Shown here piece by piece: positions 46,075-50,406 of a DNA stretch of 64,000 nucleotides (position 1 is its first letter; every line of letters begins with the position of its first letter). Origin of the DNA: Martelella lutilitoris (GTDB taxonomy: Bacteria; Pseudomonadota; Alphaproteobacteria; Rhizobiales; Rhizobiaceae); NCBI RefSeq assembly GCF_005924265.1, contig NZ_VCLB01000010.1, positions 124,001-188,000 of the forward strand, given 5' to 3'. Under the pieces are notes generated by a model. The model was not told where the DNA came from and made no database searches. It worked only from the letters and a program-made list of their open reading frames with translations. The translations under genes and the position numbers were made by a program.

Positions 46075-46324
46075 TAGACGAACCGGCGCTCTCGGCATGG
46101 CGGGGCCGCCTGTCGGCCTCGCTTGCCTTCCACGTGGTGGCATTCAGGCCCGTCGCTGTGGCCGCCGGGCCGGCCTGAAGGCGCCCTTTCACGGAGCTCT
46201 GCGTTTTTTGCATAGGGGCATTGCTGAAAAGGGTCTGCCTCGATTGGAATGAAACGATTATATCCGGTTCAACAGCAAATGATGAGCGTTCCTCAAAATG
46301 ACGCTCCAGCGAAGAGACAGAAAA

Positions 46325-46468
46325 ATGAACGTCACGCGCAGCTTCAACAACTGGATGAAATATCGTCGCACTGTCAGCGAGCTCGATCGCATGTCGACCC
46401 GCGAACTGTCCGACCTCGGCATCAACCGCGAAGATATTCGCCGGATCGCACGCCGGGCCGCATTCTAA
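46325..46468 (+). CDS. DUF1127 small protein (first copy)
   Basis: 47 residues, MNVTRSFNNWMKYRRTVSEL..., ending with the DUF1127 core LSDLGINREDIRRIARRAA. DUF1127 proteins are small, Arg-rich and at least in Rhodobacter (CcaF1) bind RNA and act in sRNA maturation. Three CCUCCUCC-loop hairpins follow directly. 38 of 47 residues match the copy at 46838 by eye. Confidence 0.92.
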   Translation: MNVTRSFNNWMKYRRTVSELDRMSTRELSDLGINREDIRRIARRAAF

Positions 46469-46496
46469 GCGACGCATAAGAATTACAGGAATTCGT

Positions 46497-46622
46497 AGGG
46501 CATTCTCCTCCTCCTCCCAAAATGCCCTTCGATAGGTCGGTGATACTCCTCCTCCTCCCAATCACCGGCCACATCAAATGGCGCTCACCGGATCCTCCTC
46601 CCCCGGTGAGCGCTATTTTTTT
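46497..46622 (+). ncRNA. Three-hairpin anti-Shine-Dalgarno sRNA array (CcsR/cuckoo-like)
   Basis: Three consecutive stem-loops, each with CCUCCUCC in the loop. (1) AGGGCATT/AATGCCCT, 46497-46528. (2) GGTCGGTGAT/ATCACCGGCC, 46535-46570. (3) GCGCTCACCGG/CCGGTGAGCGC, 46581-46613, ending in a T-run (46614-46622) that makes it a terminator. Position after a DUF1127 gene matches the CcsR1-4 sRNAs cut from the ccaF1 transcript in Rhodobacter, and the motif matches rhizobial cuckoo RNAs. Loops can pair with ribosome-binding sites. Confidence 0.83.
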
Positions 46623-46837
46623 GCGCTGTTGCCAGTCGATGAGCGCTGCCGGGCTGCAGTGCCGGTTTTCTGGTCAAATGTGAGGCAGCCTCTCCGAGCC
46701 TTGCATAGACTGCATAGGACTGTTGACGCAAACCCTCTGCCTCAACGCCGGGCAAGCCTCTATATTTCGAATTGTCAGGAACAGAGATGCGTCGCAAGGA
46801 TGCGGCGCCGAAACCTTCAAACGAAGGGAGAAATGAT

Positions 46838-47090: not shown

Positions 47091-47127
47091 CGCCCTCTGT
47101 CCTTCCTCCCGGACAGAGGGCGTTTTT
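47091..47127 (+). terminator. Terminator with UUCCUCCC loop after the second DUF1127 gene
   Basis: CGCCCTCTGTCC (47091-47102) pairs perfectly with GGACAGAGGGCG (47111-47122), loop TTCCTCCC, then TTTTT. The loop is again anti-SD-like. A second hairpin, CCGCTTC/GAAGCGG (47001-47021), lies upstream without the motif. The 3' UTR may yield an sRNA. Confidence 0.88.
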
Positions 47128-50141: not shown

Positions 50142-50406
50142 CAATGGTCCCTGAAAATCTGTTTGCGGCCGGCAGGCAAAGTGCGGGCCGGGAGGTCATG
50201 AAAACAGTTTCAACGGTTGTCCGGCGGATCGGCGGCCGGAAGAGCCACCCGGAGTTTCACCGGGTCCGGGGTTCATTGACGACAGTCAATACGGATTTGG
50301 GCGCTGAAGGGCAAGGTTTGCAGCGCAAAATAGGCGGAAAGGGGCCGGTGATCTGCGCCTGGACGTGAATTTCCGAAGGGATACTTGCCATCACACACCG
50401 CCGCAA

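Follow-up and report, generated by a model that had tools for sequence, protein, structure and literature searches.

A DUF1127 gene with an alpha-r14 (NfeR1-family) small RNA in its probable 3' UTR in Martelella

The 64-kb stretch of Martelella DNA analysed here (the window) contains two short DUF1127 genes, the first of which is followed by three predicted hairpins (Table 1). The loops of all three hairpins (46493-46618) contain CCUCCUCC, and a T-run follows the third hairpin only. A sequence-only reading had picked out this arrangement, a DUF1127 gene and then three hairpins with a common anti-Shine-Dalgarno loop and a T-run at the last one, together with a second DUF1127 gene nearby; Pfam and folding confirmed the former, and a PF06568 match the latter. 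The hairpin region has a minimum free energy of -57.7 kcal/mol, compared with a mean of -34.9 for shuffled sequences (z = -6.3), and none of the 200 shuffles was equally stable. The pattern CCTCCTCC has seven matches in the window, five of them at 46507-46601, while 2.1 were expected window-wide, and seven matches were reached by only one of 100 shuffles. Two pairs of these matches overlap, so that the five matches correspond to three sites, one per loop. The observation is real and functional-looking, and it was correctly spotted.

Table 1. Features of the DUF1127 locus in the window
Feature	Position	Strand	Basis and details
LsrB/VtlR-like box, TGCATAGGGGCATTG	46209..46223	+	12/15 letters of the Brucella VtlR motif (reverse complement)
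Putative promoter	46235..46263	+	Sequence reading; CTGCCT 46235-46240, 17-nt spacer, TTATAT 46258-46263
Short DUF1127 gene, 47 aa	46325..46468 (including stop)	+	Pfam PF06568, 57.4 bits, E 1.2e-15
alpha-r14 (NfeR1-family, cuckoo-type) sRNA, 3' UTR of DUF1127 gene	46488..46618	+	Rfam RF02344
Hairpin 1	46493..46532	+	Predicted fold; anti-Shine-Dalgarno loop 46505-46520, CUCCUCCUCCUCCCAA
Hairpin 2	46535..46570	+	Predicted fold; anti-Shine-Dalgarno loop 46545-46560, ACUCCUCCUCCUCCCA
Hairpin 3 with T-run (terminator)	46576..46622	+	Stem to 46618; loop 46592-46602, AUCCUCCUCCC; T-run 46616-46622
Putative second promoter	46702..46765	+	Sequence reading; TGCA-N6-GCAT 46702-46715, CTGCCT 46737-46742, 17 nt, CTATAT 46760-46765
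Second short DUF1127 gene, 47 aa	46838..46981	+	PF06568, 55.2 bits
Terminator of second DUF1127 gene	47091..47127	+	Fourth CCUCC-loop hairpin, 47091-47122; single UUCCUCCC loop 47103-47110

Elsewhere in the window, two RNA elements scored above their Rfam cut-offs, both on the minus strand: a sul1 RNA motif at 50215-50270, located upstream of a minus-strand ORF that by eye resembles a sulfate transporter, and a SAM riboswitch of the alphaproteobacterial type at 904-981.

The RNA that follows the first DUF1127 gene belongs to a described family. The RF02344 covariance model gave 90.1 bits against a curated cut-off of 58.8 and matched over model positions 1-123 of 123. Membership of the ftsZ-DE and ar7 families was rejected, as the Rfam scores were below cut-off. 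Members of alpha-r14 are described as having three hairpins with differing stems and an identical, ultraconserved CCUCCUCCC anti-Shine-Dalgarno motif (PMC10746234), and a 2011 paper presented such loops with variable stems in two Sinorhizobium RNA models (PMC3927594). The window RNA likewise has three predicted hairpins with differing stems, each with an unpaired CCUCCUCCC, and in this it resembles NfeR1 of Sinorhizobium meliloti, although two of its three loops exceed the nine-letter motif by one CCU triplet. The length of the loops at 46505-46520 and 46545-46560 varies by whole CCT triplets among relatives, the anti-Shine-Dalgarno stretch lengthening stepwise.

The layout also agrees with that of CIN1 or cuckoo loci, with a short DUF1127 gene beside adjacent CCUCCUCCC-loop hairpins. 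The RNA of such loci has 2 to 4 hairpins. Short DUF1127 proteins often occur with CcsR-like RNAs in alphaproteobacteria, an arrangement labelled the CIN1 locus (PMC10253847) and traced to Reinkensmeier and Giegerich 2015, as cited there; as far as that description goes, no difference in layout was seen. Given the RF02344 match and a CIN1 label already in print, neither the RNA nor its association with DUF1127 is new, and the locus is a further copy of a described small RNA family (alpha-r14/NfeR1, cuckoo) and not a new system.

Conservation was examined in 40 above-threshold alpha-r14 copies from 13 genomes of the genus, with the stems read per sequence by script. No loss of CCUCC was detected in these close relatives, all 40 copies keeping three TCCTCC clusters. 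The numbers of distinct stems were 23 for hairpin 1, 27 for hairpin 2 and 11 for hairpin 3, stem 3 being less variable between genus copies than stems 1 and 2. In the RNAalifold alignment, two-sided changes were found at 11 of 24 predicted pairs, all within hairpins 2 and 3; for hairpin 1 RNAalifold returned no structure, and the 5' arm of this hairpin seems to be out of register in the alignment. The loops are therefore kept while the stems vary with compensating changes (40/40 copies; 11/24 pairs), which bears out the earlier suggestion of selection on the loops, with counts that are not independent because the copies are related by descent.

Three alpha-r14 copies were found in the genome of the window itself, and all 13 genomes of the genus contain the RNA above the cut-off. 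Stricter filters were used for the wider samples: in the order, 63 of 199 genomes had a match at E <= 0.001 and 29 of 199 were above the cut-off; in the class, 10 of 240 had a match, and the only one above the cut-off was the window's own genome. A 385-aa protein encoded nearby has its nearest named matches in Martelella, with 97% identity to that of M. radicis, in a search that may omit the window's own genome or one very close to it. The locus of M. radicis contains the parts in the same order as the window.

The place of the RNA after DUF1127 stop codons is recurrent: 69 of the 107 above-threshold copies of the order and genus have a same-strand DUF1127 stop no more than 260 nt upstream, compared with 0 of 107 for opposite-strand DUF1127 genes in the same upstream range, which served as antisense control. 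The compact combination of a DUF1127 gene and three hairpins, pointed out in the sequence-only reading, is not peculiar to this locus: it recurs in the order and already bears the name CIN1. For these counts, and for those from the gene side below, the DUF1127 genes were found by a profile built from the locus translations, not by that of Pfam. The second RNA of a tandem array, in some loci 178-197 nt from the stop, was scored here as having an upstream DUF1127 gene. Within the genus, 27 of 40 copies have DUF1127 upstream (<=260 nt) and 13 downstream only (<=900 nt); in other genera the gene is upstream in 42 of 67 copies, downstream only in 2 and in neither place in 23, indicating that the RNA does not need DUF1127. 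Another 31 rows, kept apart from the 107 and forming part of the below-cut-off rows of the order, had DUF1127 upstream in 15 cases, downstream only in 1 and in neither place in 15.

Repeated forms were also seen. One other genus of the family has two or three alpha-r14 RNAs in tandem behind a DUF1127 gene, amounting to a row of six to nine anti-Shine-Dalgarno hairpins, and the start of one contig (G199:C54:1-3000) contains repeated units of DUF1127 and two CCTCC, spaced by ~445 nt, with alpha-r14 scores below the cut-off.

Viewed from the gene side, a CCTCC-loop hairpin lies at most 300 nt downstream of 31 of 42 DUF1127 genes in the 30 best-scoring loci of the order (controls: shuffles 7.8, GGAGG-loop 1, upstream 8), and the same holds for 33 of the 38 genes in 35 genus loci (controls: shuffles 5.7, GGAGG-loop 2, upstream 16); both sets contain the window's own loci. 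The upstream control in the genus is raised, at least partly owing to the position of the first RNA ahead of the second DUF1127 gene. The second gene ends in a terminator with a single loop of this type, a hairpin that the sequence-only reading did not list, and CCTCC was present in the terminator loop at 9 of 11 orthologous loci, the window included, while in the other 2 of 11 CCTCCC stands before the terminator; the second DUF1127 gene was read by eye in four of these eleven loci. The terminator stem changes in a paired way, from GTCC/GGAC to GCCC/GGGC, and the alpha-r14 model gave only 23.1 bits here.

Upstream of the first DUF1127 gene, a putative promoter is preceded by an LsrB/VtlR-like box, and similar promoter sequences were seen by eye upstream of genus copies. 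The published Brucella VtlR box is CAATGCAGCCATGCA (PMC12595884), and the window box reads GG where the Agrobacterium box GCAT-N3-TG-N3-T has TG (PMC7486931). In the putative second promoter, TGCA-N6-GCAT and CTATAT correspond to reported NfeR1 promoter elements (PMC10746234), and the best VtlR match, 12/15 letters at offset 29 (~46647-46661), lies apart from the exact TGCA-N6-GCAT.

Boxes were predicted at a minimum of 11/15 letters of the Brucella VtlR motif. Within the genus, 23 of the 27 promoters that precede a DUF1127-alpha-r14 pair had such a box (shuffles 2.2; control stretch 2/27), as did 22 of 36 outside the genus (shuffles 3.4; control stretch 6/32) and 12 of 25 lone copies outside the genus (shuffles 2.2; control stretch 2/25). 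No enrichment was detected in the genus copies without an upstream DUF1127 gene, with boxes in 2 of 13 (shuffles 1.2; control stretch 0/13). These counts omit 6 of the 107 rows, namely five duplicate promoter stretches and one without a start codon in range.

A candidate regulator is encoded in the same genome, where a 303-aa LysR gene lies directly before two AbcR (ar15) RNAs and TGCATGGCTGCCATG stands before the first of them; a LysR gene followed by AbcR RNAs is the arrangement described for vtlR/lsrB (PMC7486931). LsrB activates NfeR1 in Sinorhizobium (PMC10746234), and VtlR of Brucella activates three DUF1127 genes and AbcR2, while a fourth Brucella DUF1127 gene goes the opposite way and is described as lacking the VtlR motif (PMC12595884). 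The likeness to this VtlR/LsrB regulon lies in the similar box before the window's DUF1127 gene; the available accounts of the regulon mention no RNA downstream of the DUF1127 genes, whereas the window has one. From these sequence likenesses we infer that LsrB would control the locus in Martelella.

The NfeR1 RNA is preceded by an LsrB-activated promoter of its own. In the window, by contrast, the DUF1127 gene separates the putative promoter from the RNA, and no promoter with an LsrB box was found directly before the RNA. With the DUF1127 gene between box and RNA, the window RNA is to be regarded as a member of the family but not as a twin of NfeR1. Since it starts 19 nt past the stop codon, it probably arises by cleavage of the DUF1127 transcript; so short a gap speaks against a promoter lying within it, though it does not tell against a promoter inside the ORF.

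What such an RNA might do is suggested by NfeR1, which is described as a stable, Hfq-independent transcript of ~123 nt that is raised under stress, and whose locus is present in six copies in S. meliloti (PMC7143759). Its loops block mRNAs at the ribosome-binding site in a redundant manner (PMC10746234, PMC7143759), and ntrBC and two tested transporter mRNAs are silenced through these seeds (PMC10746234). The blocking of ribosome-binding sites proposed in the sequence-only reading is thus demonstrated for this relative, and for the window RNA it would hold by analogy.

Candidate targets were searched in the window's own genome, where GGGAGGAG-N3-9-ATG has 45 occurrences and the pattern read in reverse has 9, one of the 45 sites being the opposite strand of the window RNA itself. 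A solute-binding-protein domain was found at 10 of 30 sites taken up, for which 29 frames were Pfam-scanned, the opposite strand of the window RNA being omitted. For the control AAAAGGAG the corresponding numbers were 18 and 8, and 1 of 17 frames was binding-protein-like, as judged by eye and not by a Pfam scan. The excess of solute-binding proteins agrees with the transporter targets of NfeR1 and is suggestive of targeting without proving it; it may be a mere mark of strong ribosome-binding sites, the control set of 18 sites being small.

Taken as a whole, the locus is likely to be a Martelella CIN1-type locus, in which an LsrB-controlled RNA is cut from the 3' UTR of a DUF1127 gene and blocks ribosome-binding sites. 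A LysR regulator of the LsrB/VtlR type would help to start transcription at ~46270, and a single transcript would extend as far as the 46622 terminator. RNase E would then free the RNA, perhaps aided by the DUF1127 protein, as with CcaF1 in Rhodobacter, and the loops would base-pair with ribosome-binding sites of the GGGAGGAG type, many belonging to transporter genes, and reduce their translation. It speaks against this reading that DUF1127 proteins of Agrobacterium act via PhoR contacts and that Salmonella YjiS showed no RNA binding.

The hairpins could instead serve only as a stabilising 3' end and terminator of the DUF1127 mRNA, with loops that act in cis, for example as a binding place for the DUF1127 protein or for the ribosome-binding site of the same gene, without a separate RNA in trans. 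The short distance from the stop codon would suit such a role, being 19 nt in the window and, among the 69 copies that have an upstream DUF1127 gene, at most 7 nt in 23, as would the second DUF1127 gene, which likewise ends in a CCUCC-loop terminator. However, 13 of 40 genus copies and 25 of 67 other copies have no DUF1127 stop within 260 nt upstream, and NfeR1 is described as a free 123-nt RNA that acts in trans (PMC10746234), which makes a purely cis-acting role improbable.

A true CcsR-type array, with each hairpin cut out as its own small RNA like CcsR1-4 of Rhodobacter, is considered very unlikely. In R. sphaeroides, ccaF1 is a DUF1127 gene with RNAs of similar type co-transcribed downstream, and RNase E processes the ccaF1-CcsR precursor (PMC10253847), so that the layout is the same; the CcsR1 model (RF02791) also matches weakly across the last two hairpins of the window RNA. 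This match, at 29.2 bits, falls short of the 65.3-bit cut-off, and CcsR1 membership was rejected on that score, whereas the alpha-r14 match extends over the whole model. Of the likeness to CcaF1-CcsR and the cuckoo RNAs that had been noted at the outset, the cuckoo part stands with the 90.1 bits of alpha-r14 and the CcsR1 covariance match does not. Moreover, NfeR1 is described as one three-hairpin transcript (PMC10746234), and the Rhodobacter locus is reported to have four RNAs, an RpoHI/RpoHII promoter and a 71-aa protein, whereas the window has one alpha-r14, an LsrB-like box and a 47-aa protein. Chance pyrimidine-triplet repeats without function, conceivable since CCT can expand by slippage and the loops of relatives differ by triplets, were rejected in view of the fold (z = -6.3) and of the 40/40 copies that keep three TCCTCC clusters on changing stems, with two-sided changes at 11 of 24 pairs.

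The CIN1-type reading can be extended, tentatively and with rather low confidence, to the whole order: regulators of the LsrB/VtlR type would drive an operon with two products, and the DUF1127 protein would bind the CCUCC hairpins on the transcript that encodes it and set how much ribosome-blocking RNA is released, the terminator of the second gene being a minimal form with one hairpin, below the Rfam thresholds.

In the literature searched, no publication was found that joins DUF1127 with NfeR1 or with CCUCCUCCC, while three join DUF1127 with LsrB, and the one text with both Martelella and sRNA concerns, to judge by its title, a different genus, the 2015 cuckoo work and the CcaF1 work of Gruetzner 2021 being known through citations. 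The present analysis brings together parts that were not found stated together in the available texts, namely the activation of DUF1127 genes by VtlR in Brucella, that of NfeR1 by LsrB in Sinorhizobium, and the fact that DUF1127 and alpha-r14 very often form one boxed unit. Martelella is now placed in a known system of a small RNA and a small protein.
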